A stretch of 34,720 nucleotides of DNA from Kutzneria sp. 744 (GTDB lineage Bacteria > Actinomycetota > Actinomycetes > Mycobacteriales > Pseudonocardiaceae): NCBI RefSeq assembly GCF_000568255.1, contig NZ_KK037166.1:6477524-6512243 (forward strand). Direction: 5' to 3'. The first letter of the stretch is position 1, and every line of letters begins with the position of its first letter. Below are positions 16,130 to 31,611 of this stretch, piece by piece. The position numbers and the translations under genes are program-made. A model generated the notes under the pieces. The model saw nothing but the letters and a program-made list of their open reading frames with translations, was not told the origin of the DNA and did no database searches.

Positions 16130-16205
16130 TATGACGGGTGTTCCGAACGCTTTCGAGCAATTAACCTCGCGTTCGGTCCCGCCCCACCACGGATGGAGCA
16201 TGTCC

Positions 16206-18245: not shown

Positions 18246-18308
18246 CCTTCACGCCGCCCCGCCCCCACCTCGCCCAGCCCTTCCCCTTCGCCTCTCTCCC
18301 TTTTTCTG

Positions 18309-18359
18309 CCACATGTGGCCCACATTCGACGCCGGAAGTCGAATGTGGGCCACATGTGG
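18309..18359. terminator. Long perfect hairpin between convergent genes (repeat element, copy 1)
   Basis: Left arm 18309-18330 and right arm 18338-18359 are exact 22-nt reverse complements around a 7-nt loop. Each arm begins or ends with the self-complementary decamer CCACATGTGG. It lies 63 nt after the phospholipase stop and 2 nt beyond the stop of the convergent DUF1990 gene. In the DUF1990 direction it is followed by a purine tract starting AGAAAAAGGGAGAGAGG. A homologous copy lies at 30595-30643. A bidirectional intrinsic terminator is the most likely role. Confidence 0.8.
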
Positions 18360-18361
18360 GG

Positions 18362-18874
18362 TCAGTTGAGGGAGGCGAGGTAGCGGTCGGTGAGGAGGTT
18401 CTGCGCCAGGCGGCCGACCGGGCCGCCCAGCTTCGCCAGAAGCGTCGCCGGGCGGGAGAACGCCGTCACCACGAACGACACCGCTCCGTCGTCGGCCCGC
18501 TCCACCACGAACGCCTCCTCGCCGCTGACCGGATGCCCCGGCAGCGTCCCGTAGGCGAAGCCCTGCCGGGTCGGCTCGTCGATGACGTGCACCACGCGGC
18601 ACGGCACCTGGATCGGGCCCAACCGCAGCACCACCACGGCATCCGGCTCCACCCGGGCCGACGACGCCTGCACCCGCAGCCCAGTCGCCACCTGTGGCCG
18701 CCAGCCCAACAGCCGGTCCGCGGCCTCGTCGAAGCCGGTGGACAGCCGCACGCGACGGCTGATCGTGCGGTAACCGGCCGGCAGCGCGCCGGCGGTCGCC
18801 CCGACCTCGGCGTAGGTGAACGGGGCCGCTTTCAGCTCGGCGGCACGGGCGGCGGACAGCAGTTGGACGGTCAC
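18362..18874 (-). CDS. DUF1990 family protein
   Basis: About 170 residues, cytosolic, function unknown. Family marks are AAPFTYAEVGATAGALPAGY near the N-terminus, RVRLSTGFDEAADRLLGW, and the C-terminal AFSRPATLLAKLGGP with NLLTDRYLASL. GTG at 18874 is chosen because it gives the usual family length; the frame is open upstream to 18991, which would add 39 residues unlike the family and leave only 17 nt to ccdA. It is transcribed against the cytochrome-maturation genes and its 3' end abuts the hairpin. Confidence 0.82.
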   Translation of the reverse strand: MTVQLLSAARAAELKAAPFTYAEVGATAGALPAGYRTISRRVRLSTGFDEAADRLLGWRPQVATGLRVQASSARVEPDAVVVLRLGPIQVPCRVVHVIDEPTRQGFAYGTLPGHPVSGEEAFVVERADDGAVSFVVTAFSRPATLLAKLGGPVGRLAQNLLTDRYLASLN

Positions 18875-19008
18875 CGGCCCATTGTCCTTCACAAAGATCA
18901 GATGCCCCGAGGTCGCGGCCGGCAAACCGGGTAGCACATCGCGCCGAAAACGGGCGGTGACCTGCCCCGGTTGCTCGGTGACCTGGGCCACTACCTACTC
19001 TCGGTCGA

Positions 19009-19788
19009 GTGAACGCGCTGGCCGAGCTAGCCACGTCGGGGCCGCTGTTGCTGGCCGCGGCGGTTGCCTTGCTCGCCGGCGCGGTGTCGTTCGCCTCTCC
19101 CTGCTGCCTGCCGCTGGTGCCCGGCTACCTGGCGTACCTGGCCGGCCTGGTCGGCGCGGACGCCCCGGCGGTGAGCGCCGACGAGCCGGCCAAGGCGGGT
19201 CGCTGGCGTGTGGTCGGGGCTTCGGGGCTGTTCGTGCTGGGCTTCACCGTGGTGTTCACCATCGGCTCCGTCACGCTGTTCGGGCTGACGGATCTGTTGC
19301 TGCTGAACGCGGAGTGGCTGCAGCGCATCGGCGGCGTGGTGACGATCCTGATGGGCCTGGTGTTCGTGGGCCTGGTGCCGATGTTGCAGCGGGATCTGCG
19401 CCTGCACCGCAAGCCGCGCGTGGGCCTGCTGGGCGCGCCGGTGCTGGGCGCGGTGTTCGGGCTGGGCTGGACTCCGTGCGTCGGACCGACGCTGGGCGGG
19501 GTGCTGTCGCTGACCGCCGGCACACCGGTGGGCCCGATCGCGCTGCGCGGCATCTTCCTCATCCTGATCTTCTGCATCGGCCTGGGCGTGCCGTTCGTGC
19601 TGATCGCCATGGGCGCCCGCTGGGCGGTGCGGGTCACCGGCTGGCTGCGCCGGCACGTGCGGGGCGTCCAGCTGGCCGGCGGCGGCCTGCTCATCGTCGT
19701 GGGCGTGCTGCTGGTCTTCGGCTGTGGGGCCAGCTGCTCGCGATCATTCAGGACAACTTCGCGACGAATGGCGTCGGTGCCGCTGTGA
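19009..19788 (+). CDS. ccdA: Cytochrome c biogenesis protein CcdA
   Basis: Six-helix membrane protein (259 residues) that passes electrons from cytosolic thioredoxin to ResA. The two redox motifs are visible: SFASPCCLPLVPGYLAYLAG (residues about 26-45) and GLGWTPCVGPTLGG (about 155-168). The stop lies in GTGA with the resB start, so gene ends are coherent. However, the last 22 residues as read (CGASCSRSFRTTSRR...) look unnatural, while one frame over the same DNA reads LWGQLLAIIQDNFATNG, a normal CcdA tail. A missing C near 19722 and a second compensating indel near 19770 may therefore be present. Confidence 0.92.
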   Translation: MNALAELATSGPLLLAAAVALLAGAVSFASPCCLPLVPGYLAYLAGLVGADAPAVSADEPAKAGRWRVVGASGLFVLGFTVVFTIGSVTLFGLTDLLLLNAEWLQRIGGVVTILMGLVFVGLVPMLQRDLRLHRKPRVGLLGAPVLGAVFGLGWTPCVGPTLGGVLSLTAGTPVGPIALRGIFLILIFCIGLGVPFVLIAMGARWAVRVTGWLRRHVRGVQLAGGGLLIVVGVLLVFGCGASCSRSFRTTSRRMASVPL

Positions 19789-21329
19789 CGAACGCTCTCG
19801 CCTACCTCCGCAACACCTGGCGCGGCCTGACGGCGATGCGCACGGCGCTGATCCTGCTGGCGCTGCTGGCCCTTGGCGCGCTGCCCGGGGCGCTGCTGCC
19901 GCAGCGGCAGCTGAACGCGGGCAAGGTCAGCGACTACATCACGGAGCACGGCTGGTGGGGCCGGCTGCTGGACACGCTCCAGTTCTACGACGTCTACGCC
20001 AGCGTCTGGTTCTCCGCGATCTACGTGCTGCTGTTCATCTCGCTCGTGGGCTGCCTGACGCCGCGCATGTTCGAGTACGCCAAGCAGGCCCGCCAGCAGC
20101 CGGTGATCACCCCTCGCAACCTGGCCCGGCTGCCGCACCACGGCACGTCCACTGTGGACGTCGCGGTGGACGACGTGGTCGAGGCCTCCCGCAAGCGCTT
20201 GCGGGGCTGGCGCATGGTCGTGCGCGAGGAGGACGACGGCGCCCGCACGATCAGCGCCGAGCGCGGCTACCTGCGCGAGACCGGCAACCTGCTGTTCCAC
20301 TTCGCGCTGCTGGGCCTGATCGTCGCCTTCGCCTTCGGCAAGCTGTTCGGCTACGCCGGCCAGGTCGCGGTGATCGCCAACGGCTCGCAGTTCTGCAACT
20401 CCGGCCTGTTCGCGTACGACAGCTTCACGCCCGGCCTCAAGGTCGACGGCACCGAGCTGGATCCGTTCTGCATCAAGGTGAACGACTTCAAGGCCACCTA
20501 CCTGCCGGACGGGCAGGCCAACAGCTTCGACACCGGCGTGCAGTACCAGACCGGCGCCGACCTGAACTCGGACCGGTGGGAGCCCTACGACCTGCGGTCC
20601 AACCACCCGCTGCGCACCGCGGGCGACCGCGTCTACCTGCTCGGCCACGGCTACGCCCCGCAGTTCACGGTCACCTTCCCGGACGGCCAGACCCGCACCA
20701 AGGCCATCCAGTGGAACCCCAGCGACCTGAACACCATGCTCTCCAGCGGCACCACCACGTTCGACCCGCCGAACACCACCGACGAGACCGAGCTGCGCAA
20801 GCACCAGATCGCCATCACCGGCCTGTTCGCGCCGACCGCGGTCTTCGACGGCACGCTGATGTCGTCGATCTACCCGGGGGCCAACGACCCGGCCGTCGCG
20901 GTCCAGGTCTACGAGGGCGACCTGGGCAACAACTCGGGCTACGCGCACAACCTGTTCACCATCGACCAGTCCATGGTGGAGCAGGGCCGGCTGGTGCAGA
21001 AGGCGATGAAGAACCTCAAGCTGGGCCAGGAGATCGCGCTCCCGGACGGCACGAAGATCAAGTTCGACAAGGCGCTGGAGTTCGTCGGCCTCCAGGTCTC
21101 GCACGACCCCAGCCAGGACTTCGTGCTGGTGTTCGCGGTGCTCATGCTGGTCGGCCTGATGGGCTCACTGGCCATCAAGCGCCGCCGGCTGTGGCTGCGG
21201 GTGACACCTTCGGGTGAAGGTACGGTTGTCGAGGTCGGAGGCCTGGCCCGCACGGACCAGGCCGGGTACGGCGAGGAATTCACCAGGCTTTCCGCCGAAC
21301 TCCTGACGGGGAAGAAGAGGGACACCTGA
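19785..21329 (+). CDS. resB: Cytochrome c biogenesis protein ResB
   Basis: System II (Ccs) haem-handling membrane protein of 514 residues. GTG start at 19785 within a GTGA overlap. Helices near the N-terminus (MRTALILLALLALGALPG, SAIYVLLFISLVGCLTPR), a third at LLFHFALLGLIVAFAFG, a large extracytoplasmic domain (about residues 200-440), and the last helix VLVFAVLMLVGLMGSLAI. Together with CcsB it exports haem and ligates it to reduced apocytochrome c. The 1-nt overlap with ccsB supports a ResB-CcsB complex. Confidence 0.95.
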   Translation: MTNALAYLRNTWRGLTAMRTALILLALLALGALPGALLPQRQLNAGKVSDYITEHGWWGRLLDTLQFYDVYASVWFSAIYVLLFISLVGCLTPRMFEYAKQARQQPVITPRNLARLPHHGTSTVDVAVDDVVEASRKRLRGWRMVVREEDDGARTISAERGYLRETGNLLFHFALLGLIVAFAFGKLFGYAGQVAVIANGSQFCNSGLFAYDSFTPGLKVDGTELDPFCIKVNDFKATYLPDGQANSFDTGVQYQTGADLNSDRWEPYDLRSNHPLRTAGDRVYLLGHGYAPQFTVTFPDGQTRTKAIQWNPSDLNTMLSSGTTTFDPPNTTDETELRKHQIAITGLFAPTAVFDGTLMSSIYPGANDPAVAVQVYEGDLGNNSGYAHNLFTIDQSMVEQGRLVQKAMKNLKLGQEIALPDGTKIKFDKALEFVGLQVSHDPSQDFVLVFAVLMLVGLMGSLAIKRRRLWLRVTPSGEGTVVEVGGLARTDQAGYGEEFTRLSAELLTGKKRDT

Positions 21330-22288
21330 TGCCGGTCAACGAGACGCTGGCCCGCTACAGCGACTGGAGCTACGTCTCCGCGGTCGTCGTCTACGTCCTG
21401 GCCATGGTGTTCTACCTGGTCGAACAGGCCATGACCAAGACCAGGCGGCAGGCCGCGCGCGAGCTGACCGCGGTCGGCGGCGGCAGCGCCGAGGCCGTCG
21501 AGGTCCCGGCCGAGTCGGTCGTCGTCACGCGCTCGCCCCGGGCCGACCGCTTCGGCCGCATGGGTTTTTCCCTCAACGTGCTCGGTGTCCTGCTGCACGC
21601 CGCCGCGGTGATCCTGCGCGGTGTGGCCACGGACCGCGTGCCGTGGGGCAACATGTACGAGTACGGCTCGGCTGTCTGCCTGTTCGCCGTGGTCGGCTGG
21701 CTGGTGCTGGCCAAGCGCTTCGACATCCGCCGCCTGAGCGTGTGGGTGCTGCTGCCGATCGTCGTGCTGCTGTTCCTCGGCGGCACCGCGCTCTACACCC
21801 CGGCCGCCCCCGTGCAGCCGGCGCTGCAGTCGTACTGGCTGGCCATCCACGTCACCGCGGTGTCCATCTCCAGCGGCCTGCTGCTGCTGCCCGGCGTGGC
21901 CAGCCTGCTGTACCTGTTCCGCGCCGCGTACGAGCGCAACGGTCGGTTCGCCGGCTTCGCCGCCCGGCTGCCCAAGGCCGAGGTGCTCGACCGGCTGGCC
22001 TACCGGGTCACCGTGGTCGGCTTCCCGCTGTTCACCTTCGCGATCATCTGCGGCGCGATCTGGGCCGAGTCGGCGTGGGGCCGGTTCTGGGGCTGGGACC
22101 CCAAGGAGACCTGCGCGTTCATCGCCTGGGTGATCTACGCCGTCTACCTGCACGCCCGGGCCACCGCCGGCTGGCGCGGCAACCGCGCGGCGGTGATCAA
22201 CATCCTCGGCTTCGCGTCGATGGTGTTCAACCTGTTCTTCATCAACCTGGTGACGTCGGGCCTGCACTCCTACGCCGGGGTCGCGTGA
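21329..22288 (+). CDS. ccsB: Cytochrome c biogenesis protein CcsB/CcsA (haem lyase)
   Basis: Integral membrane haem lyase of 319 residues, the partner of ResB. The haem-binding tryptophan-rich WWD signature is present as WGRFWGWDPKETCAFIAW, with conserved histidines in IHVTAVSISS, VYLHARATAG and the final SGLHSYAG. About eight helices, with a longer cytosolic loop after helix 1 (about residues 33-72). It starts at TGATG shared with the resB stop and closes the cytochrome-maturation operon. Confidence 0.95.
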   Translation: MPVNETLARYSDWSYVSAVVVYVLAMVFYLVEQAMTKTRRQAARELTAVGGGSAEAVEVPAESVVVTRSPRADRFGRMGFSLNVLGVLLHAAAVILRGVATDRVPWGNMYEYGSAVCLFAVVGWLVLAKRFDIRRLSVWVLLPIVVLLFLGGTALYTPAAPVQPALQSYWLAIHVTAVSISSGLLLLPGVASLLYLFRAAYERNGRFAGFAARLPKAEVLDRLAYRVTVVGFPLFTFAIICGAIWAESAWGRFWGWDPKETCAFIAWVIYAVYLHARATAGWRGNRAAVINILGFASMVFNLFFINLVTSGLHSYAGVA

Positions 22289-22375
22289 CCCCGTGTCGAC
22301 CCGGCCGAACGCGCCTACTACCGTCGTCAACGGACGGGGAGGTCTCGATCCGCTAGCGCAGGGAGGACCCCAGCG

Positions 22376-23629
22376 GTGACCGGTCGTTTTGATGAGTCCG
22401 AGGGCTGGAAGGCGCCCGGCCAGGATCAGGCCGTCCAGTCCGGTCCGCACCCCGTAGACCCGTCGTCCTCCGGGTCGTACCAGGTCAGCGGAGGTCAGTC
22501 CGGTCCGTATCCCGTGGGTGGCGGCCAGTCCGGCCCCTATCCGGTCGGCGGCGGCCAGTCCGGCCCGTACCCGGTGGACCCGGCCCAGCAGCCGCAGCCG
22601 CCCGTGCCGCAACCGCAGCCGGGCTACCAGCAGCAGCCCTACGCCCAGCCGGGTGGTTACCAGCAGCCGCAGTACGGCCAGCCGCCCCAGTACGGGCAGC
22701 AGCCCGGCCCCGGCCAGCAGGCGCTGTCCCCGCAGGAGCTGATCAAGCAGAACAAGCGGCCGCCGCAGTCCGGCTGGCGTCGCAGCCTGCACCAGCTCTC
22801 CGGCGGGCTGGTCAACCTGGGCGAGAGCCCGGCCGACGTGCGCCGCCGCGAGCTGATCGCCCGTATCAACCAGCCCCAGCGCGGCTGCTACAAGATCGCG
22901 ATGCTGAGCCTGAAGGGCGGCGTCGGCAAGACCACCACCACGACCACGCTCGGCTCCACCTTCTCCTCGCTGCGCGGCGACCGCGTGATCGCGGTGGACG
23001 CCAACCCGGACCGGGGCACGCTCAGCCAGAAGATCCCGCTGGAGACCACCGCCACCGTGCGGCACCTGCTGCGCGACGCCAAGCGGATCACCCGCTACAG
23101 CGACGTGCGGGCCTACACCTCACAGGGCCCGAGCCGGCTGGAAGTCCTTGCCAGCGAACAGGATCCGGCCGTCTCGGAGGCGTTCAGCGAGGACGACTAC
23201 CGGCGCGTCGTCGACCTGCTGGAGCACTTCTACAACATCGTGCTCACCGACTGCGGCACCGGCCTGATGCACTCGGCCATGGCCGGCGTGCTCGACCTGG
23301 CCGACTCGCTGGTGATCGTCTCCTCCGGCTCGGTGGACGGCGCCAACAGCGCGTCGGCGACCATCGACTGGCTGGAGGCGCACGGCTACCGGGACCTGAT
23401 CCGGCGCTCCGTGGCCGTGATCAACTCGGTGCGGCCGCGGGCCGGCAAGGTGGACCTGGACAAGCTGTCCCAGCACTTCGCCAGCCGCTGCCGCGCGGTC
23501 GTGCGCATCCCGTTCGACCCGCACCTGGAGGAGGGCGCGGAGATCGAGCTGGAGCGCCTCAGCCCGGACACGCGGCTGGCGCTGCTGGAGCTGGCGGCCA
23601 CGGTCGCCGACGACTTCCCCACGCGCTGA
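22376..23629 (+). CDS. MinD/ParA-like ATPase with disordered repetitive N-terminus
   Basis: A 417-residue protein. GTG start with GGAGGA about 9 nt upstream. Residues 1 to about 125 are Pro/Gln/Gly/Tyr-rich and disordered, with a ten-residue tandem repeat (GGGQSGPYPV) and QQPYAQPGGYQQPQYGQPP. The C-terminal P-loop domain has the deviant Walker A MLSLKGGVGKTTTTTTLGS, switch AVDANPDRGTLSQ and LTDCGTGLMHSAM. This layout is typical of actinobacterial ATPases associated with type VII (ESX) secretion, such as EspI. No ESX gene is visible here, so a positioning or scaffold role is also possible. Confidence 0.88.
   Translation: MTGRFDESEGWKAPGQDQAVQSGPHPVDPSSSGSYQVSGGQSGPYPVGGGQSGPYPVGGGQSGPYPVDPAQQPQPPVPQPQPGYQQQPYAQPGGYQQPQYGQPPQYGQQPGPGQQALSPQELIKQNKRPPQSGWRRSLHQLSGGLVNLGESPADVRRRELIARINQPQRGCYKIAMLSLKGGVGKTTTTTTLGSTFSSLRGDRVIAVDANPDRGTLSQKIPLETTATVRHLLRDAKRITRYSDVRAYTSQGPSRLEVLASEQDPAVSEAFSEDDYRRVVDLLEHFYNIVLTDCGTGLMHSAMAGVLDLADSLVIVSSGSVDGANSASATIDWLEAHGYRDLIRRSVAVINSVRPRAGKVDLDKLSQHFASRCRAVVRIPFDPHLEEGAEIELERLSPDTRLALLELAATVADDFPTR
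22487..22576 (+). repeat. Three 30-nt tandem repeats encoding (S/G)GGQSGPYPV
   Basis: Units at 22487-22516, 22517-22546 and 22547-22576 encode SGGQSGPYPV, GGGQSGPYPV and GGGQSGPYPV; a degenerate copy (QSGPHPV) precedes them. The units differ mainly at third codon positions, so the repeat is kept at protein level and is not a very recent slippage product. It lies in the disordered N-terminus of the MinD-like ATPase. Confidence 0.8.
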
Positions 23630-23642
23630 GCTGAGCTGGTCA

Positions 23643-24306
23643 TGACCGAGCCCTCCTCGTCGGCCGACGAGGAGGTGCAGCTGCGGGGCAGCAGCCTGGA
23701 GCTGCGTTGCTGCTGGCCGTGATCTGGTGGATGTGCGGGGCCTACACGTGGCTGACCAACGCCGTGCCGCCGCGCAGGACCTCCACCCGGGCGCTGCTGG
23801 TGGTGGCCATGGTCGCCTACCTGGTGATCGTGCTCGTGCACACCGGTCTGTTTCCTGACCGCCCAGGATCCCGGCAGCCGGCACGGCATGCTCCGGTTCC
23901 CCACCGGCGTCACCGTGCGGGCTTCACACTTCGTTGAGCGGCACGGGCTGGTGCTGATCATCGCGTTCGGCGAGTCCGTGGTGGCCGTCTGCATCGGCGC
24001 GGCCGCATCGCCGTCACACCAGGGCTGATCGTGGCGGCGGCGCTGACCACCGTGAGGCTGGCCGGGCTGGCGCTCGGCGGGGGCGTCGCGCTCTACCTGG
24101 TTGGCGACGTGCCGCTGCGGCTGGTGCTGCACCTCGGGTCGAACTGGACCCGCTGCGTCGCCGCGGTCCTTGCCGCGGCCAGCACGGTGGTGGGGGCGAC
24201 CGGATCGGCCGTCGCCCAGCTCGCCGTGTTGACCGCGGTGGTGCTCCTGCTGGTGGCAGCCGAGCACCTGGGCCGTCAGCCTGGCGGGTTGCCGTCCTCG
24301 GGGTGA
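23643..24306 (+). pseudogene. Decayed low-temperature-requirement (LtrA) membrane protein
   Basis: Fragments of one LtrA-family protein lie in order in different frames: SSLEL (N-terminus); LLAVIWWMCGAYTWLTNAVP with a following helix; VLVHTGLF, shifting frame to MLRFPTGVTVRASHFVERHG and LVLIIAFGESVVAVCIGAA; then LALGGGVALYLVGDVPLRLV and QLAVLTAVVLLLVAAEH. An intact member is about 350-400 residues, but only about 220 codons of space remain. Several internal segments are missing as well as frameshifts, including most of the first helices. Deletions of this size cannot be homopolymer errors, so this is a genuine relic. Its end overlaps the small gene on the other strand. Confidence 0.8.
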
Positions 24307-24467
24307 CGCTTGGCCTGCTCGGCCAGCTTGCGCAGGAACTCGGGGTCGTCATCGGGCCCGACACCGCGCTTGGCCTTGCTGCCGACGTGCACCCGGTCGG
24401 AGCCGAATGCGCGCCAGAGCAGATAGGCCACGGCTATCGCGCCGATCACCGCGAGCAGGTAGACCAT
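24276..24467 (-). CDS. Small single-helix membrane protein
   Basis: A 63-residue protein: N-terminal helix MVYLLAVIGAIAVAYLLWRA, then a charged cytosolic tail with DDDPEFLRKLAEQAKRHPED. GGAGG lies 6 nt before the ATG, a strong ribosome binding site. It follows bldC on the same strand after about 60 nt. Short proteins of this pattern (one helix, then D-x-E-F-L-R-x-L) are common in actinomycetes and have no known role. The last 30 nt overlap the LtrA relic. Confidence 0.78.
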   Translation of the reverse strand: MVYLLAVIGAIAVAYLLWRAFGSDRVHVGSKAKRGVGPDDDPEFLRKLAEQAKRHPEDGNPPG

Positions 24468-24529
24468 GCGGCACCTCCGGTCAACTGCTCCGAGACTATC
24501 TCGTGAACAGTTGGTTCGGGGTGTGCCGC

Positions 24530-24763
24530 TCAGGCGTTACGCACCGGCTCCGTCGCCTCGGTGGTCAGCTCGGCGAGCAGGGTCTTCACCTCGGACTCGC
24601 GGAATCGCCGGTGGCCGCCGGGGGTGCGGATGGAGCCGATCCGGCCCGCCGTCGCCCAGCGGGTGACGGTCTTGGGGTCGACACGGAACAGGGTGGCCAC
24701 CTCGCCGGGGGTGAGCAGGCGCTCTCCGGCGTGCTGGCGGGGGTGCGGCACGGTCGCGGTCAC
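24530..24763 (-). CDS. bldC: BldC-like MerR-family DNA-binding protein
   Basis: A 77-residue single-domain winged-helix protein. GTG at 24763 is chosen because GGAGG sits 6 nt upstream; an in-frame ATG at 24805 would add 14 residues. Core: LLTPGEVATLFRVDPKTVTR, then WATAGRIGSIRTPGGHRRF and RESEVKTLL, essentially the BldC pattern. In Streptomyces BldC is a developmental regulator that binds DNA cooperatively as head-to-tail monomers and controls the onset of differentiation. The short acidic C-terminal tail is typical. Confidence 0.93.
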   Translation of the reverse strand: MTATVPHPRQHAGERLLTPGEVATLFRVDPKTVTRWATAGRIGSIRTPGGHRRFRESEVKTLLAELTTEATEPVRNA

Positions 24764-24990
24764 TCTCGACCTCCCAGTCGCTTGGTTCGGGCGTTCCGGT
24801 CGCATCGTGGCATCTCACCCTGCGGGTACTCGAACGCTTGGGTGGAGGTAAAGAGGTAGTAAGGCCCAAAAGGTACAAAAGTGGGCAGCGGTGCATACGT
24901 TTGCACAGGCGCCCCCGACAGGGGCGTGGCGGGCCGTGCACCAATGATCACCCGTTCTACGCCGGTCCAGGTGCGGGCTCCGTGAAGTCC

Positions 24991-24996
24991 TAGGAT
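24991..24996 (+). promoter_or_regulatory. Candidate leaderless promoter -10 for the Lrp gene
   Basis: TAGGAT ends 6 nt before the ATG at 25003, so a transcript starting about 7 nt after the box would begin at the start codon, as in many actinobacterial leaderless mRNAs. There is no ribosome binding site in the gap. The 239-nt divergent region between bldC and this gene also holds two small inverted repeats: GTGCA-N6-TGCAC near 24892-24907 and CGCCCC-N5-GGGGCG at 24910-24926. Either could be an operator. Confidence 0.35.
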
Positions 24997-25002
24997 TCTC
25001 GG

Positions 25003-25470
25003 ATGGACGCCCTGGATCGTCAGATCATCGCCGCCCTGCGGGCCAACGGGCGGGCGACCTACGCCGACCTCGGCCGCCAGGTCGGCCTGTCCGCCTCCGC
25101 CGTGCACGAGCGGGTCGGCAAGCTGGAGTCCTCCGGCGTGATCACCGGCTACCACGCGGTCGTCGACCCGCGGCTGGTCGGCCTGGACGTGACCTCGCTG
25201 GTCGGCATCCACGTGTCCGACACCGGCGACGACGACGAGGTGGCGGCCGCGCTGGCCCGGCTGCCCGAGGTCGAGTCCTGCTACGCGGTGGCCGGCGACG
25301 AGGCCTTCGTGGTCAAGGTCCGGGTGGCGACCGTCGACGACCTGGAGCGGGCGCTGCGCCGGCTGCGCAAGATCGACGGCGTGGCCCGGACCAACACCAC
25401 GGTGGTGCTGTCCACCCGCTTCGAGGGCAGGCCCAACAGCCCCGAGGAGCTCGGTGCCTGGGCCGAGTAG
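25003..25470 (+). CDS. Lrp/AsnC-family transcriptional regulator
   Basis: A 155-residue feast/famine regulator. N-terminal helix-turn-helix: MDALDRQIIAALRANGRATY, then LGRQVGLSASAVHERVGKLE and SGVITGYHAVVDP. C-terminal RAM ligand domain: SLVGIHVSDTGDDDEVAAAL, VESCYAVAGDEAFVVKVRV, LSTRF. The following genes (DUF4229 protein, cysteine desulfhydrase) are on the same strand 11 nt and 265 nt on. Lrp-type regulators of cysteine desulfhydrases are known in enterobacteria (the YbaO/DecR type), so an amino-acid-responsive link to cysteine breakdown is a reasonable inference. Confidence 0.95.
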   Translation: MDALDRQIIAALRANGRATYADLGRQVGLSASAVHERVGKLESSGVITGYHAVVDPRLVGLDVTSLVGIHVSDTGDDDEVAAALARLPEVESCYAVAGDEAFVVKVRVATVDDLERALRRLRKIDGVARTNTTVVLSTRFEGRPNSPEELGAWAE

Positions 25471-25481
25471 CCTGGGCAGCC

Positions 25482-25739
25482 GTGGAGACCAGCACTTTCG
25501 GCCGTGACATCGCGCTGTACACGGGGGCCCGGATCGGGCTGCTCGTGGTGATCGCGTTCCTGCTCACGCTCGCCCATGTGCCGCTGCTCATCGCCCTCGC
25601 GGTCGGGCTCGTGCTGGCCTGGCCGCTGTCCATGGTGCTGCTGCGGCCGCTGAACGCGCGCATCGCCGCCGCGCTCACCGAGCGCCGGGCCGAGCGCCTG
25701 AAGATGCGCGCCGAGCTGCGCGGGGAGGCGTCCGAATGA
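25482..25739 (+). CDS. DUF4229 small membrane protein
   Basis: An 85-residue protein from GTG 25482: two helices ([20 protein letters not shown] and [20 protein letters not shown]) and a basic, alanine-rich C-terminal helix ([20 protein letters not shown]). The pattern matches the actinobacterial DUF4229 family, which has no known function. The stop overlaps the next ATG by 4 nt, so it is likely translated together with the desulfhydrase. Confidence 0.82.
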
Positions 25740-26812
25740 GCGTCGACGCCACCCGATGTTGGGTCCGTGAGGCCGTCCGCATCATCGAGGCCGACGCCAA
25801 CCGCAGCGCCGACACGCACCTTCTGGCCTTCCCGCTGCCGCGGGAGTGGGGCGTGGACCTCTATCTCAAGGACGAGTCAACTCACCCGACCGGTTCTCTC
25901 AAGCACCGCCTGGCCCGATCGCTGTTCCTGTACGCCATCTGCAACGGTTGGGTGACCAAGGGCACACCGGTGATCGAGGCGTCGTCCGGCTCGACCGCCG
26001 TCTCCGAGGCCTATTTCGCCCGCCTGCTCGGCCTGCCGTTCATCGCGGTCATGCCCCGGTCCACCAGCCGGGAGAAGATCACCCTCATCGAGCGCCAGGG
26101 CGGCACCTGCCACTTCGTCGACGAGCCCGGTGCCATCTACGACGAGTCCCGGCGGCTGGCCGGCGAGCTCAGCGGCCACTACATGGACCAGTTCACCCAT
26201 GCCGAGCGGGCCACCGACTGGCGGGGCAACAACAACATCGCCGAGTCGATCTTCGACCAGATGGCCTCCGAGCAGCACCCCGAGCCGGCCTGGGTGGTCG
26301 TCGGCGCCGGCACCGGCGGCACCAGCGCCACCATCGGCCGCTACGTGCGCTACCGCCGGCTGAGCACCCGCCTGGCCGTCGTCGACCCCGAGATCTCGGT
26401 GTTCTACGACGCCTGGCAGTCCGTCTCGCCCACACTGACCGGCTGCAAGGGCTCGCGCATCGAGGGCATCGGCCGTCCCCGCGTCGAGCCCTCCTTCGTC
26501 GGCGACGTCATCGACCACATGATCAAGGTCCCGGACGCCGCCTCCATCGCCACCATCCGCTACGTGCGCGACCTGCTCGGCCGCAAGGTCGGCGGCTCCA
26601 CCGGCACCAACCTGTGGGGCGCCTTCCAGATCATCGCCGGCATGCGCCGCCACGACCGCGCCGGCAGCGTCGTCTCCCTGCTCTGCGACGGCGGCGAGCG
26701 CTACGAGAACACCTACTACGACGACGCCTGGGTCGCCGCCCAGGGCCTCGACCTGCGCCCCCACACCCAGACCCTGGAGAAGTTCTTCGCCACCGGCGAC
26801 TGGGTCGCCTGA
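25736..26812 (+). CDS. cds1: PLP-dependent L-cysteine desulfhydrase, Cds1 type
   Basis: A 358-residue fold-type II PLP enzyme. The PLP lysine is in [13 protein letters not shown] (about residue 56); the substrate-binding loop is [14 protein letters not shown], and the phosphate-binding glycine loop is [15 protein letters not shown]. It differs from cysteine synthases in having no standard C-terminal sulphide-assimilation motifs, and it closely resembles mycobacterial Cds1, which converts cysteine to pyruvate, ammonia and hydrogen sulphide. ATGA overlap with the DUF4229 gene; probably under the Lrp regulator upstream. Confidence 0.88.
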
Positions 26813-26815
26813 CCC

Positions 26816-26968
26816 ATGCTGCCCTCACACTCGGCGGCCATTCACGAAGCGATTGCGTCGCGACGCGACGCCAGCCTCGCGGAGGCGTATCTGCTGGCGT
26901 GGGAAGAAGGGGAGTGCGACATCTGGGAGGCTGCCGTCGCTGACGGCCCTGCCGATCTGCCGGAGTGA
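26816..26968 (+). pseudogene. Truncated antitoxin remnant of a MazEF-like toxin-antitoxin pair
   Basis: A 50-codon frame: EAIASRRDASLAEAYLLAWE followed by ECDIWEAAVADGPADLPE. The pattern, a helical segment followed by an acidic, tryptophan-containing tail, resembles the C-terminal, toxin-binding part of small MazE/CopG-like antitoxins. The expected DNA-binding N-terminus is absent. It ends directly on the toxin remnant. The antitoxin identity rests mostly on that neighbour and is tentative. Confidence 0.45.
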
Positions 26969-27095
26969 CTCCAAGGCGCAGGCCGAACAGGTGCGCGCGG
27001 TGTCGACGGATCGACTGCGCGGCCGGATCGGGGAGCTTCCCGCCGAGATGCTGAAGCAGGTGGACGAGGCCCTTCGGCTGCATCTCGCGCTGTAG
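26967..27095 (+). pseudogene. C-terminal remnant of a MazF/PemK-family toxin
   Basis: About 42 codons encoding SKAQAEQVRAVSTDRLRGRI followed by GELPAEMLKQVDEALRLHLAL. The Q-V-R-(A/T)-V-S-x-D-R-L motif, the GxLP turn and the closing helix ALRLHLAL are characteristic of the last third of MazF/PemK endoribonucleases. The N-terminal two thirds, including the strands that carry the catalytic residues, are missing, and there is no start codon in this frame near the junction. A deletion running from the middle of the antitoxin into the toxin would explain both remnants. Confidence 0.6.
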
Positions 27096-27103
27096 GGCCT
27101 GAG

Positions 27104-27559
27104 CTACTCCTCCGCGCCTTCGTCGGGGCCGGGGTCGCCGCCCTCGGCGCGGACGAGCAGGCGGTCCAGGTAGTGGTTCCAGCCGATGCCGTGGGACTGG
27201 AACAGCTCCAGCGGCAGGCCGCGGTGGGTGAGGGTCAGCACGGTGGCGGCGCCGTCCGGCCGCAGGGTGATGTCCACAGTGGACGAACCGGGTGGCACGG
27301 GGTTGCCGGGTGTCTCCCAGCCCCAGGTGAAGGCGATGCGGTGGTAGGGCTCGACGGCGACGAAGCGGCCGGAGGCCACGTTGCCCTCGCGCACGTTCAT
27401 TCGGAACACGCCGCCGGGCCGCGGATCGATCTCGGCCTCCTCGCCCTGCCACAGCAGCCAGCGGTCGGCGTCGGTGAAGAACGAGAACACGGTCGGCGGC
27501 AGGGCGTTGATGCGCCGCTCCACGACCAGTTCCGGGGCCTGCGTCGACGGCTCGGTCAT
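27104..27559 (-). CDS. SRPBCC (AHSA1-like) domain protein
   Basis: A 151-residue Bet v1/START-fold protein: VVERRINALPPTVFSFFTDA, GGVFRMNV, RIAFTWGWE, PPGSSTVDITLRPDGAATVL, GWNHYLDRLL. Such proteins often pair with ArsR-type repressors; here the ArsR gene is immediately upstream with an ATGA overlap. The first domain of the divergent gene (27976-28944) is a clear paralogue sharing TWGWE and VPPGSSTV, so the locus probably arose by inverted duplication. The ligand is unknown. Confidence 0.92.
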   Translation of the reverse strand: MTEPSTQAPELVVERRINALPPTVFSFFTDADRWLLWQGEEAEIDPRPGGVFRMNVREGNVASGRFVAVEPYHRIAFTWGWETPGNPVPPGSSTVDITLRPDGAATVLTLTHRGLPLELFQSHGIGWNHYLDRLLVRAEGGDPGPDEGAEE

Positions 27560-27882
27560 GCCGACCGTCCCTCCTGTTCGGCGTTGTCCCGCTCGACCTG
27601 TTCGGCCAGAGCGGCGAGGGTGTCCAGCTCAGCGGTCCACATCGACTCCAGCCACGCGGCCAGCGGCCCGAGCGCGGCGCGGTCGGCGCGGTAGAGCCGC
27701 CGGTTGCCGTCCTTGCGCACGCTGACCAGCCCGGCCTTGCGCAGCACGGCGAGGTGCTGCGACACGGCGCCGAACGTCACGTCGAAGTGCGCGGCGACGT
27801 CGCCGGCCGAGCGCTCGGCGTCCCATACCAGGCGCAGGATCTCCCTCCGGCGGGGTTCGGCCACCGCGTGCAGCGCGTCCAC
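27556..27882 (-). CDS. ArsR-family transcriptional repressor
   Basis: A 108-residue winged-helix protein: HAVAEPRRREILRLVWDAER, then SAGDVAAHFDVTFGAVSQHL, AVLRKAGLVSVRKDGNRRLY. There is no cysteine anywhere, so it is not a classic thiol metal sensor; it belongs to the ArsR group paired with AHSA1 proteins. A TAAACT -10 lies 6 nt before the GTG start, suggesting a leaderless transcript, and the operator at 27891-27906 overlaps that -10, which points to autorepression. Confidence 0.94.
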   Translation of the reverse strand: MDALHAVAEPRRREILRLVWDAERSAGDVAAHFDVTFGAVSQHLAVLRKAGLVSVRKDGNRRLYRADRAALGPLAAWLESMWTAELDTLAALAEQVERDNAEQEGRSA

Positions 27883-27890
27883 GTCGGCAG

Positions 27891-27906
27891 TTTAGCGCCG
27901 ACTAAA
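27891..27906. promoter_or_regulatory. ArsR operator-like palindrome 1
   Basis: TTTAGCGCCGACTAAA: arms TTTAG and CTAAA around six nucleotides. On the minus strand the TAAACT -10 of arsR (27894-27889) overlaps it. It shares the frame TTTAGC-N4-(A/G)CTAAA with the site at 27936-27951, 45 nt away. A/T-rich symmetry in a region of about 70% G+C and the match between the two sites make a repressor-binding role likely. Confidence 0.6.
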
Positions 27907-27935
27907 GCTTGCGGACAGTGCCCGTCGGGGCTAAC

Positions 27936-27951
27936 TTTAGCCACGGCTAAA
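27936..27951. promoter_or_regulatory. ArsR operator-like palindrome 2
   Basis: TTTAGCCACGGCTAAA: perfect 6-nt arms TTTAGC and GCTAAA around CACG. The plus-strand box TAAAAT (27948-27953), a plausible -10 for the AHSA1-MDMPI gene, overlaps its right arm; the ribosome binding site GGAGGAG starts about 10 nt beyond. The arrangement mirrors palindrome 1 at the divergent promoter. Confidence 0.6.
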
Positions 27952-27975
27952 ATAGATTCGACGGAGGAGCCCGAG

Positions 27976-28944
27976 ATGACCGTGGACGTGAGCGTGCAGG
28001 TGCCGACGAGCGCCGAGGAGACCTACGCCTGGCTGACCGAGCCGGCCCGGCTGCGCCGGTGGCAGATCATCGCCGGCCGCACGGACCCGCGGGTCGGCGG
28101 CGAGTTTCGCTGGCTGATCGCCCCCGGCCACACCGCGCTGGGCGCCTTCACGGCGATCGAGCCGGGCCGGCTGGCCTCCACCTGGGGCTGGGAGAACAAC
28201 GAGGAGGTGCCGCCCGGTTCGTCCACTGTGGAGCTCACGGTCGAGCCGAATGCCGACGGGGCAACGGTTCGGCTCGTGCACGAGGGCCTGCCGTCCGACG
28301 CGCAGGCCAAGGGCCATACCGAGGGCTGGGAGCACTTCCTCCAGCGTCTCAAGGGTGTGACCACGACCGGCGACGCCGGCCCCGACGAGTTCTCGGCGAT
28401 GAGCGAGGAGAGCAGGCTCGACGCGGCCGAGGCGTCGCTGGCGGTCTGCCTCCGTGTGCTGCGGGCCATCGGCACCGACCACGGCACCGACCAGACGCCG
28501 TGCGCGAAGTTCACCGTGGACGACCTGCTCGACCACCTGCTCGGTTCGCTTGTCACCCTCGGGGGCATGGCCGGGCGCACGTTCGAGGCCAGCACCGTCG
28601 GCACGCCCGAGGAGCGGGTCGCCGACGCCGGCCTGCGCGCGACCGAGGCGTGGCGGGCTCGGGGCCTCGACGGCATGGTCACCAGCCGCGTCGGCGAGAT
28701 CCCGGCGGAGCTGGGGGCGTCCATCCTGTCGGTCGAACTTCTCGTGCACGCCTGGGATTTCGCCACCGCGACCGGCGTGGCCATCGCCGCCGACGACAAG
28801 CTCAGCGCCTACGTCCGGGAGCTGGCCGGCACCCTGATCGCGCCGCAGATGCGCGACGGCGACCAGTTCGCCGCCGAGGTTCCCGTCGGCCCCGATGCGG
28901 GCACCCTCGAGAAGCTCATCGCCTATACCGGAAGGGCGGCCTGA
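27976..28944 (+). CDS. AHSA1/SRPBCC domain fused to a mycothiol-type maleylpyruvate-isomerase-like (TIGR03086) domain
   Basis: A 322-residue two-domain protein. Residues 1 to about 135 form an SRPBCC domain (SAEETYAWLTEPARLRRW, GGEFRWLIAPGH, STWGWENN, VPPGSSTVELTV, GWEHFLQRL). Residues about 145-322 are a DinB/MDMPI-like four-helix domain: CAKFTVDDLLDHLLGSLVTL, a central TEAWRARG helix and VELLVHAWDFATATG with the expected metal-side histidine. The C-terminal domain suggests a mycothiol-linked or metal-binding activity. ATG follows GGAGGAG. The stop shares TGATG with the DUF899 gene. A separately encoded paralogue of the first domain lies across the divergent promoter. Confidence 0.88.
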   Translation: MTVDVSVQVPTSAEETYAWLTEPARLRRWQIIAGRTDPRVGGEFRWLIAPGHTALGAFTAIEPGRLASTWGWENNEEVPPGSSTVELTVEPNADGATVRLVHEGLPSDAQAKGHTEGWEHFLQRLKGVTTTGDAGPDEFSAMSEESRLDAAEASLAVCLRVLRAIGTDHGTDQTPCAKFTVDDLLDHLLGSLVTLGGMAGRTFEASTVGTPEERVADAGLRATEAWRARGLDGMVTSRVGEIPAELGASILSVELLVHAWDFATATGVAIAADDKLSAYVRELAGTLIAPQMRDGDQFAAEVPVGPDAGTLEKLIAYTGRAA

Positions 28945-29606
28945 TGGAGTACACGAACCTGGCCGAGTCCGCCGAGTACCTCAAGGCCCGCGAGGAACTG
29001 CGGCTCGCCGAGATAGACCTGATGCGACAACGGGAACGCGTCGCCCAGCAGCGCCGCGACCTCCCGCCCGGGCCCGTGATGCCGAACTACGCCTTCGACA
29101 ACGGCGCCGTGACGCTGGGCGACCTCGTCACCGACCGGCCGTTGATCGTCTATCACCTGATGTACGGCAAGAAGCAGACCACGCCCTGTCCGATGTGCAC
29201 GATGTGGCTCGACGGCTTCAACGGCGTCGCCCACCACATCGCCCGCAACGCCGACTTCGCGGTCGTCGCCGCGGCCGAGCCGGATGAGCTCCAGCGCTTC
29301 GGACGTGAGCGCGGCTGGGACCAGCTGCGGCTGCTTTCCTGCGGTGACAACACGTTCAAGCGCGATCTGCGCAGCGAGGACGAGGACGGCAACCAGGACT
29401 CCACCATCTCCGTGTTCGCCCGTGACGGCGAGGGCGAGATCCGGCACCACTACACGACCCGGCCGCGCATGGGGGAGGACATCCAGGAGCGTGGCATCGA
29501 CCTGTACGCCCCGGTTTGGCAGCTGCTCGACCTGACGCCATCCGGCCGTGGCGACTGGTATGCCGGTCTCGACTACGGTCGACTCGTCAGCGGGAACCGA
29601 ACCTGA
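28944..29606 (+). CDS. DUF899 thioredoxin-like protein
   Basis: A 220-residue cytosolic protein. Helical N-terminus (YLKAREELRLAEIDLMRQRE) followed by a thioredoxin-like fold: NGAVTLGDLVTDRPLIVYHL, CPMCTMWLDGFNG, HHIARNADFAVVAAAEPDEL. The CPMC pair sits where thioredoxin-type proteins carry their redox cysteines. The C-terminus has HHYTTRPRMGEDIQERGIDL and LDLTPSGRGDWYAGLDYGR, typical of the family. It is translationally coupled to the AHSA1-MDMPI gene, so the two likely serve one thiol- or ligand-related response controlled by ArsR. Confidence 0.9.
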   Translation: MEYTNLAESAEYLKAREELRLAEIDLMRQRERVAQQRRDLPPGPVMPNYAFDNGAVTLGDLVTDRPLIVYHLMYGKKQTTPCPMCTMWLDGFNGVAHHIARNADFAVVAAAEPDELQRFGRERGWDQLRLLSCGDNTFKRDLRSEDEDGNQDSTISVFARDGEGEIRHHYTTRPRMGEDIQERGIDLYAPVWQLLDLTPSGRGDWYAGLDYGRLVSGNRT

Positions 29607-29622
29607 GACGAGGACACGCGCG

Positions 29623-30579
29623 GTGAGCAATCCGGTGCGGTGGGGAATCATGGGCACGGGCGGGATCGCGGGGGCGTTCGCGACCGACCTGAAGCTGACC
29701 GACTCCGGCACGGTCGTGGCCGTCGGCTCGCGCAGCCAGGCCTCGGCCGACCGGTTCGCCGACGCGATCGGCATCGAGCGCCGGCACGCCAGCTACGAGG
29801 ACCTGGCCGCCGACCCCGACGTCGACGCCGTCTACGTCGCCACGCCGCACCCGCTGCACCACCCCAACGCGCTGCTGGCCCTGCGCGCGGGCAAGCCGGT
29901 CCTGGTGGAGAAGCCGTTCACCATGAACGCCGGCGAGGCCCGCGAGCTGGTGAAAGTGGCCCGGGACAACAACGTCTTCCTCATGGAGGCGATGTGGACG
30001 CGGTTCCTGCCCGGCATTCGGCACGTCCGCGAGCTGATCGGCGGCATCGGTGACGTCGTCACCGTCACCGCCGATCACGGGCAGTGGTTCGCCGAGGACG
30101 CCGAGCACCGGCTGTTCGCGCCCGCGCTGGGCGGCGGCGCGCTGCTGGACCTGGGCGTGTACGTGGTGTCCTTCGCGTCCATGGTGCTCGGCGCGCCCAG
30201 CAAGATCGTGTCCATGGTCGACCCGGCCTTCACCGGCGTCGACGGCCAGACCTCGATGATCCTCGGCTACGGCAGCGGCGCGCAGGCCGTGCTGACCTGC
30301 ACCCTGCGGGCCAAGAGCCCGACCCGGGCGGCCATCGTCGGCACCGACGGCCGGATCGAGATCGACGGCCCCTTCTACGCCCCGGCCACGGTCACCCTGA
30401 CCCCGCGCGACGGCGAGCCCACGGTGTTCGAGTCCGTGCACGAGGGCAGCGGCCTGCGCCACGAGGCCGACGAGGTGGCGCTGCGCCTGGCCGCCGGCGA
30501 CACCGAAAGCCCCCTCATGCCCCTGGACGAGACGATCTCCATCATGGAGACCATGGACACCGTCCTGGCCCAGGCTTAA
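29623..30579 (+). CDS. Gfo/Idh/MocA-family NAD(P)-dependent oxidoreductase
   Basis: A 318-residue dehydrogenase from GTG 29623. Rossmann fold: WGIMGTGGIAGAF, VVAVGSRSQASADRFAD; the EKP motif GKPVLVEKPFTMNAGEARE carries the conserved lysine. C-terminal substrate domain: GGGALLDLGVYVVSFASMVL, AIVGTDGRIEIDGPF. It resembles trans-1,2-dihydrobenzene-1,2-diol/D-xylose dehydrogenase-like members, but the substrate cannot be fixed. GACGAGG upstream is a plausible ribosome binding site 17 nt after the DUF899 stop, so it may be the last gene of the ArsR-controlled operon, ending at the hairpin. Confidence 0.93.
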   Translation: MSNPVRWGIMGTGGIAGAFATDLKLTDSGTVVAVGSRSQASADRFADAIGIERRHASYEDLAADPDVDAVYVATPHPLHHPNALLALRAGKPVLVEKPFTMNAGEARELVKVARDNNVFLMEAMWTRFLPGIRHVRELIGGIGDVVTVTADHGQWFAEDAEHRLFAPALGGGALLDLGVYVVSFASMVLGAPSKIVSMVDPAFTGVDGQTSMILGYGSGAQAVLTCTLRAKSPTRAAIVGTDGRIEIDGPFYAPATVTLTPRDGEPTVFESVHEGSGLRHEADEVALRLAAGDTESPLMPLDETISIMETMDTVLAQA

Positions 30580-30594
30580 CCCCCACTTTCTTGC

Positions 30595-30643
30595 CACATG
30601 TGGACCACATTCGACTTCCAGAGTCGAATGTGGTCCACATGTG
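30595..30643. terminator. Long perfect hairpin between convergent genes (repeat element, copy 2)
   Basis: Left arm 30595-30616 and right arm 30622-30643 are exact 22-nt reverse complements with a 5-nt loop. It lies 15 nt after the oxidoreductase stop, and the convergent menA gene ends at 30689. Outside the arms, CTTTCTT (30586-30592) and AAGAAAG (30650-30656) could add a 7-bp outer stem. Aligned with copy 1 read in the DUF1990 direction, arms and loop (CTTCC(A/G)G) are nearly identical. One stem pair differs on both sides (A:T here, C:G there), so pairing is kept. Confidence 0.82.
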
Positions 30644-30655
30644 TCGTCAAAGAAA

Positions 30656-30678
30656 GGGGAGGGGGAGGGAGGGGAGGG
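30656..30678 (+). other. G-tract array with quadruplex-forming pattern after the hairpin
   Basis: Five runs of three to five G separated by single A residues, directly after hairpin copy 2 and before the menA stop at 30689. This matches the standard intramolecular quadruplex pattern with one-base loops. The equivalent side of copy 1 is also purine-rich but with weaker G-runs. It may help polymerase pausing or simply belong to the terminator tail. Confidence 0.55.
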
Positions 30679-30688
30679 CCGGGGTGGG

Positions 30689-31567
30689 TCAGGAGCCTCC
30701 GAGGGCGAGGCCGGCGGCGGTGGCGACGGCCCACACCAGCATGGCCAGGCCCGTGTCCCGCAGCACCGGGATGAGGGCCTTGCCGCTGGCGCCCTTGATC
30801 ATCTTGCGGGAGCTGGTCAGCAGCAGCGGCAGGGCCAGGAAGCCCAGCAGCAGGTAGCCGTCGCGCAGGCTGCCGACGATGCTGACCAGGAACGGCACCA
30901 GGATCAGGCCCAGGTACAGGTTGCGGGTGTCCCGGTCGCCGATCAGCACGGCCAGCGTGCGCTTGCCGGACTCGGTGTCGGTGGGGATGTCCCGCAGGTT
31001 GTTGGCCACCAGCACGGCGCTGGAGAAGCAGCCGATGGCCACCGCCCCGCCGATGCCGTAGCCGCTGAACTGCCCGGCCTGCACGTACAGCGTGCCGAGC
31101 ACGGCGATCAGGCCGAAGCAGATGAACACCGCGACCTCGCCGAGGCCGGCGTAGCCGTAGGGGCGCTTGCCGCCGGTGTAGAACCAGGCCGCCGCGATGC
31201 ACAGCGCCCCGACCGCGATCAGCCAGTACGAGCCGCTCAGCACGGTCACGGCCAGGCCGGCGACCGCCGCCACGCCGAAGCAGACGAACGCCGCCAGGCG
31301 CACCGTCTGGGGCTTGGCGACCTTGGACCCGACCAGCCGCAGCGGGCCGACCCGCACGTCGTCGGTGCCCCGCACGCCGTCGGAGTAGTCGTTGGCGAAG
31401 TTCACGCCGATGATCAGGGCCAGCGCGACGACCAGCGTCAGCACGCCCCTCGTCACGTCGAACGCGCCGAGCGCGAGCGCGGCGCCGTTGCCCACCAGCA
31501 CCGGGGCGATGGCGTTGGGCAGGGTGCGCGGTCGGGCACCCTCGATCCACTGTGCGACCGTGGCCAT
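30689..31567 (-). CDS. menA: 1,4-Dihydroxy-2-naphthoate polyprenyltransferase
   Basis: UbiA-family membrane prenyltransferase that attaches the isoprenoid side chain to 1,4-dihydroxy-2-naphthoate, giving demethylmenaquinone. 292 residues from ATG 31567 (MATVAQWIEGARPRTLPNAI); an in-frame GTG at 31591 would add eight. First Mg-diphosphate motif NFANDYSDGVRGTDD and second DIPTDTESGKRTLAVLIGDR are intact; about eight or nine helices. It lies near menE and menB on the same strand, separated from them by a secreted-protein gene. Confidence 0.95.
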   Translation of the reverse strand: MATVAQWIEGARPRTLPNAIAPVLVGNGAALALGAFDVTRGVLTLVVALALIIGVNFANDYSDGVRGTDDVRVGPLRLVGSKVAKPQTVRLAAFVCFGVAAVAGLAVTVLSGSYWLIAVGALCIAAAWFYTGGKRPYGYAGLGEVAVFICFGLIAVLGTLYVQAGQFSGYGIGGAVAIGCFSSAVLVANNLRDIPTDTESGKRTLAVLIGDRDTRNLYLGLILVPFLVSIVGSLRDGYLLLGFLALPLLLTSSRKMIKGASGKALIPVLRDTGLAMLVWAVATAAGLALGGS

Positions 31568-31611
31568 GCCGTCATCTTCCGACACGGCCACGGCCGCCCG
31601 TCAACCAGGGC

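Follow-up and report, generated by a model that had tools for sequence, protein, structure and literature searches.

What are the two long hairpins that stand between convergent genes in the chromosome of Kutzneria sp. 744, and do they belong to something larger? The stretch of DNA in which they occur (the window) comprises 34,720 nucleotides (nt) of contig NZ_KK037166.1 (assembly GCF_000568255.1, positions 6,477,524 to 6,512,243 of the forward strand) and sits in an 11.65-Mb chromosome, referred to here as genome G000. An original prediction, made from the letters of the window, suggested a dispersed family of bidirectional terminators or a domesticated palindromic repeat, and the hairpins do resemble both. 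Each is a copy of a dispersed 53-base-pair (bp) element with a 23-7-23 anatomy, which mostly follows closely on a stop codon and has convergent neighbours more often than any other arrangement. Judged from sequence, they are probably copies of a repeat akin to REPINs (repetitive extragenic palindromic, or REP, doublets forming hairpins) that has been turned into a bidirectional gene-end element serving in termination or 3' protection.

The first hairpin pairs 18309-18330 with 18338-18359 around a 7-nt loop and the second pairs 30595-30616 with 30622-30643 around a 5-nt loop. As predicted, all 22 pairs are formed in both stems; the fold z-scores range from -9.2 to -11.2 for the two hairpins on either strand, and none of 200 dinucleotide shuffles folded as well. 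Their position between convergent genes also stands, with stops at 18245 and 18362 around the first and at 30579 and 30689 around the second, and one pair is indeed altered on both sides, 18319:18349 being C:G in the first element and 30604:30634 being A:T in the second. The palindrome ascribed to each arm, CCACATGTGG, occurs without change in three arms, and the fourth reads CCACATGTGT. The two 22-bp stems are offset from each other by one position, and 53 nt is the better unit. Element 1 extends over 18308..18360 (arms 18308-18330 and 18338-18360, linker 18331-18337) and element 2 over 30593..30645 (arms 30593-30615 and 30623-30645, linker 30616-30622). A search of the window against Rfam 15 at gathering scores gave no match.

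A genome-wide search for further copies had been set beforehand as the test of a dispersed family. With the pattern CACATGTG-N3-CACAT-N17-ATGTG-N3-CACATGTG and at most three mismatches, 39 copies were found in G000 and 54 in G004 (Kutzneria sp. CA-103260, NZ_CP073318.1). The other 295 Pseudonocardiaceae genomes searched, which include five congeners, had none, and the reversed pattern, used as a control, had no match. The copies studied number 89 (all 39 of G000 and 50 of the 54 of G004); they lie mostly at gene ends, and none reaches further than 15 bases into a predicted gene. The two window hairpins are members of a dispersed family, far from chance. Searches of one literature library gave no paper on such repeats in Kutzneria or the Pseudonocardiaceae, and the family was not recognised in the titles and abstract openings that were listed; it may still be in print. 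In G000, elements also occur in pairs 30-99 bp apart, in the manner of bacterial interspersed mosaic elements (BIMEs), at L022, L032, L035, L297:9270-9391, L299:11180-11301 and L300:9824-9971.

The unit consists of two inverted 23-nt arms around a 7-nt linker. Within either arm the sequence is again nearly palindromic, about a 3-nt centre, or spacer, that varies freely; in the left dyads of the window elements this centre is GCC at 18318..18320 (partner 18348-18350) and GAC at 30603..30605 (partner 30633-30635). Pairing stays strong as far as pair 23 and drops off outside the unit, whose last two pairs are present in 84 and 71 of the 89 copies, compared with 55 and 29 for the two positions that follow (G-U counted throughout). 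Read as a dyad, an arm forms 7.5 of 10 pairs in the family versus 2.7 in shuffled arms, and across all the sets examined 6.7-7.5 versus 2.5-2.7; the fraction paired about the 3-nt centre is 0.67-0.75 in these sets, and about any other tested centre it is at most 0.44. Since the arms are near-palindromes, a copy can fold as one long or two small hairpins. In 176 of 178 strands the long fold is the more stable, its mean energy being -30.0 kcal/mol versus -14.3 for two small hairpins. Hybrids make up most of the copies, a common form having TCGAC at the end of one arm and GTGGC at that of the other, and copies with an identical inner arm part are rarer than chance (15 of 89 versus 26.5 expected).

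Genes were called with a home-made codon-usage caller trained on the window's genome alone. Among the 88 copies with both neighbours, 50 lie between convergent, 29 between tandem and nine between divergent genes, compared with 46 convergent junctions among the 367 others at these loci (Fisher p = 4e-17). From intergenic length, 14.1 convergent copies would be expected, so that those seen amount to a 3.5-fold excess. Tandem copies are closer to the upstream stop in 25 of 29 cases, and at convergent junctions the median distance from stop to hairpin is 30 nt, with 70 of 100 stops within 50 nt. In the 30 nt after the stop, element junctions (61 stops) have 55% C and 19% G versus 35% C and 30% G in controls (111 stops). 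As had been expected, the usual U-tract is mostly missing: at least three T in the 8 nt behind the hairpin were counted in 34 of 178 strands, leaving 144 of 178 without a U-tract, and at least three A in the 8 nt after it in 106 of 178, the same number as for at least three T in the 8 nt before it. A purine tract had been described on one side of the hairpins; it is present, but either strand has a purine-rich stretch behind the hairpin. The reason is that, on both strands alike, the family's 5' flank is rich in C and T and its 3' flank in A and G. In the window, a C/T-rich tract runs on the + strand from the stop to element 1 (18246..18307), and a purine-rich tract lies behind element 2 (30646..30688, + strand), which on the - strand is a pyrimidine-rich tract from the stop at 30689 to the hairpin.

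Three known systems come close to this description. The REPINs and BIMEs of Pseudomonas, Escherichia and others are likewise dispersed and extragenic, consist of a pair of imperfect palindromes that face each other across a short linker in inverted orientation, form species-specific families with paired changes, are sited behind genes and between convergent genes, and also fold as one long or two small hairpins (PMC3116915, PMC3733652, PMC2817692). With 39 and 54 copies, and none of the 89 in a gene, the element is a repeated extragenic inverted palindrome as these are. Unlike them, it has a near-fixed 23-7-23 geometry and lacks the GTAG/CGTC border tag in nearly all copies: within 10 nt outside the unit, GTAG and CGTC each occur in one of 89 copies and their reverse complements in two and four, and in the inner 17 nt GTAG occurs in two, CGTC in six and GACG in ten. 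REPINs of Pseudomonas also have a longer unit than 53 bp. The transposase that is associated with REP sequences (RAYT; Y1, PF01797) had no match in G000, G001, G002, G004, G005 or G006 (completeness 93-100%), and G003 gave one partial match of 33 positions, barely above a cut-off at which five of 14 control genomes were also positive; spread by RAYT was rejected, as PF01797 was not found in six of the seven Kutzneria genomes. No transposase was seen among ten predicted proteins beside elements (five G000 loci, four with close pairs; two of the ten had no Pfam family), other recombinases not having been searched genome-wide, and no direct repeat of 3-9 nt of the kind left as a target-site duplication by miniature inverted-repeat transposable elements borders the 53-nt unit in the 89 copies.

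The second system is the 'I-shaped' terminator, with which the element shares a strong hairpin no more than about 50 nt from the stop and the absence of a U-tract, as the distances and tract counts given above indicate; the U-rich tract that directly follows a canonical intrinsic terminator is lacking in most strands. I-shaped terminators are a structural class and not repeated sequences, whereas the element is a repeated sequence. Such U-less gene-end hairpins are reported in actinobacteria, from mycobacteria (PMC12288462) and from Streptomyces clavuligerus, where 353 of 535 highly structured 3' ends are U-less and have been likened to I-shaped terminators (PMC8269248). Termination of this kind without a U-tract is disputed, going by the titles for both views that are cited in PMC12288462. 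The third system is the bidirectional terminator, in which, as here by placement, a single element serves two convergent genes; the U-rich terminators of S. clavuligerus are described with an A-tract upstream and a U-tract downstream (PMC8269248), and here the order is reversed, with T before and A after. It is because of the REPIN-like build, together with the fit to the structure of U-less terminators, that we take the hairpins for bidirectional gene-end elements.

Placement and anatomy are observed in the sequences; transcription, termination, a use of Rho and a copying enzyme are what we infer. A possible scheme can be described as follows. The element would be transcribed from either side and would fold as an RNA hairpin of about 23 bp in both messages, whose 3' ends would be set by U-less termination at the hairpin. 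Alternatively, Rho may load on the C-rich stretch between stop and hairpin, with subsequent trimming back to the hairpin; the C-rich, G-poor flank would fit a Rho-dependent end or 3' protection. In either case, converging transcripts would be kept apart by the element. Copies may spread and overwrite one another by whole-unit copying, that is, by transposition or conversion by a putative enzyme, and this would explain both the house alleles of each species and the different hairpin families found at one and the same junction.

The corresponding junctions in related Kutzneria bear on this scheme. Thirteen junctions, both of the window among them, carry an element in G000 and in G004. In a tree of one 3.8-kb stretch, G000 groups with G002 (94.5% identical) and the position of G004 is poorly supported; G002, the nearest relative on that tree, has no CACATGTG copy by pattern. 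At the second window junction, G002 has instead a 23-bp hairpin of the CACATGCGCTTCC (GCTTCC) type, and G006 a 28-bp hairpin of another type behind the UbiA gene, the facing gene being different; G001 and G003, where the two genes all but meet, have no hairpin, and G005 could be aligned on the UbiA side alone. At the first, folding gives other hairpins in G001, G002 and G003 (without shuffle comparison), and G005 and G006 are not alignable on both sides. The GCTTCC type is a family in its own right: its arm, with at most three mismatches, occurs 56/57 times (forward/reverse) in G002, 30/34 in G001, 34/31 in G000, 9/11 in G003, 4/7 in G004 and not at all in G005 and G006, and the reversed control 0-2 times per genome. 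The G006 arm occurs 70/65 times in G006 (control 1/0) and at most 2/2 times in the other genomes. Both types are placed in a similar way: a sample of the former has 11 convergent, 13 tandem and no divergent copies, with 10 of the 13 tandem ones at most 60 nt from the upstream stop, and a sample of the latter seven, seven and one, with six of the seven tandem ones at that distance and one copy overlapping a predicted gene. At the L038 junction, one CACATGTG and one GCTTCC element stand together.

Twenty further G000 junctions were sought in the relatives, and 18 were traced to G002 and G003, some via a single flank. A hairpin of other sequence that beats all 60 shuffles is found at eight of the 18 in G002 (L019, L020, L021, L024, L027, L033, L041, L168), four times of the GCTTCC type (L019, L027, L041, L168), and at seven of the 18 in G003 (L019, L020, L024, L033, L034, L039, L168), with a scorer so strict that the junction of G000 itself passes at 14 of 18, once via a second hairpin. 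The L033 junction (counterparts L270, L241 and L261) is no evidence of replacement, since a second hairpin around CTCGCTTCCC is kept there in G000, G004, G002 and G003, and the CACATGTG element beside it is present in G000 alone. At L012, L018, L038 and L042, both G002 and G003 show aligned gene ends that either overlap or are separated by no more than 24 bp. A further hairpin family, with arms like CTGAGTGGCTCATTTGGC, occurs at junctions of G000 elements in G002 and G003 (L235:234-286, - strand; L264:152-204, + strand; L255, about 699-751, + strand), and long hairpins footed on GCGAGTCCCGCTC lie near two element junctions in G002 and G004 (L236, L273), perhaps as another dispersed family.

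The explanation that competes best is that the copies are selfish REPIN-like mobile DNA without a role for the host, which collects behind genes only since insertions elsewhere are harmful. Lineage-specific families and species-specific alleles, the absence of the CACATGTG family from G002, the copies 30-99 bp apart in places and the nine between divergent genes would all suit such DNA, and the close gene ends at L012, L018, L038 and L042 give the impression of a later gain of the element by G000. However, gene avoidance alone is insufficient for the 3.5-fold excess at convergent junctions, hairpins of other sequence stand at several identical junctions in relatives, and the Y1 transposase was not found in six of the seven genomes; overall, we regard a purely selfish repeat as possible but unlikely.

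The altered pair was originally read as a sign that selection has kept the pairing, and this reading fails for most of the family. The spacers match in 14 of the 15 copies with matching inner arms, where 4.1 would be expected, and in 11 of the 74 hybrids, where 15.2 would be. Since matching in the hybrids is no better than chance, the position in question is not kept paired in most copies, for which simple compensatory selection is rejected; the compensatory pair is a property of the palindromic minority. In G004, the same pair is A:T in the counterpart of element 1 and T:A in that of element 2. At the 13 common junctions, changes amount to 12 of 338 positions in the conserved words (a number biased downward, since the search pattern permits only three changes), 30 of 78 in spacers, 16 of 130 in inner arm ends and 35 of 91 in linkers, and in the 20 nt outside the unit 263 of 520 ungapped sites differ. 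The GTC spacer occurs in 37 of 100 arms in G004 versus six of 78 in G000 among all studied copies, and in 12 of 26 versus two of 26 at the common junctions (p = 0.004). Spacer alleles thus recur across copies in species-specific proportions, which indicates the copying of whole units. Whole-unit copying accounts for the paired change better than compensatory selection does, and the spacer pattern looks like species-wide rewriting rather than independent repair of single pairs.

Nearly fixed words around dyad centres that vary freely, and that in hybrids are not complementary beyond chance, could also mark double-stranded protein-binding sites, each with two dyads 30 bp apart, for chromosome organisation, gyrase or a roadblock. 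Without the use of a model, the 23-7-23 geometry was also found in two other Kutzneria families, and a geometry of about 22-7-22 in a single member of another, which would agree with this. On the other hand, the words differ by species and genus, so that the binding protein must change its specificity each time, and their constancy is inflated by the search pattern; binding sites are therefore an improbable explanation. Template switching yields perfect stems and paired double changes. The copies could then be ordinary U-less intrinsic terminators that are alike only through such perfection of palindromes and shared base composition, and U-less gene-end hairpins are reported in actinobacteria as mentioned, but perfection in place cannot put identical words at 39-54 distant loci and leaves the differing inner arm parts of 74 of 89 copies unexplained, which makes this account very improbable.

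A covariance model, R1, extends the search beyond the genus. It has 43 rows, 41 of them picked for good pairing (at least 18 of 23 pairs); at most 48 candidates were scored per genome, so that counts near 48 are lower bounds, and a palindrome is counted on both strands. Elements 1 and 2 score 68 bits (E = 7e-16) and 66.7 bits (E = 1.6e-15), both copies (L166 and L167) being themselves among the rows. Of 120 Pseudonocardiaceae genomes from 46 genera, R1 matches 25 at E <= 0.001, which belong to 13 genera and comprise four Kutzneria (G005 not among them) and 21 others. The best-match loci from 16 of these 21 include 14 well-paired 23-7-23 hairpins of other sequence, the remaining two having been left out of the dyad count for weak ungapped pairing; 14 of the 16 are clear of predicted genes and nine lie between convergent genes. 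Because the rows were chosen for good pairing, the covariation counts and the constant 53 nt are biased, and constant length in other genera is weak evidence. Tentatively, and with less assurance than the gene-end role itself, we suggest that the element may represent a new actinobacterial repeat class: a RAYT-independent nested palindrome of fixed 23-7-23 form, without the tag, that colonises gene ends in the Pseudonocardiaceae, with each family rewritten as a whole per species, so that families succeed one another at the same junctions while a gene-end function is kept.

Several results weigh against a bidirectional gene-end role. Nine of the 88 copies are divergent (L022, L026, L037, L044, L121, L123, L149, L151), where no message is expected to end, and these are unexplained by a pure terminator role. 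No hairpin beats all shuffles at 10 of the 18 traced junctions in G002 and 11 of the 18 in G003, several of them with abutting genes, so that a hairpin is not required there. Both the search pattern and R1 favour well-paired copies. The idea that the flanks form an extended outer stem was rejected, as a copy's own flanks match no better than swapped ones (means 7.29 and 7.25). Finally, a sense-strand wobble bias in the tandem CACATGTG copies (20 versus 6, 3 equal; p = 0.009) was not repeated in two other families (0 versus 5, 15 equal); pooled over three families p is 0.15, and wobble polarity is not used here as support for an RNA role.

To the left of element 1 is a phosphoesterase gene with a bacterial phospholipase C C-terminal domain (16131..18245, + strand; PF04185, PF05506) and to its right a DUF1990 protein gene (18362..18991, - strand; PF09348). 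Element 2 has a Gfo/Idh/MocA oxidoreductase gene on its left (29548..30579, + strand; PF01408) and a UbiA prenyltransferase gene on its right (30689..31591, - strand; PF01040). The arm pattern matched 40 stretches, and a subset of 12 alpha-proteobacterial contigs (L047, L049, L055-L057, L062, L067, L073, L077, L078, L084, L085) was rejected as copies, since they read similarly without forming a hairpin (best score 5-8); our guess is that this stretch is coding.

The way in which messages end without U-tracts in high-GC actinobacteria is a matter of dispute. A large set of related gene-end hairpins, whose orthologous junctions in close species carry the hairpin in some cases and lack it in others, offers a natural experiment on message ending. 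The family also raises the question of what copies a REPIN-like repeat where the usual transposase is missing. If the proposed function holds true, the elements could serve as insulating parts between convergent genes, for use in Kutzneria and soil actinobacteria related to it.

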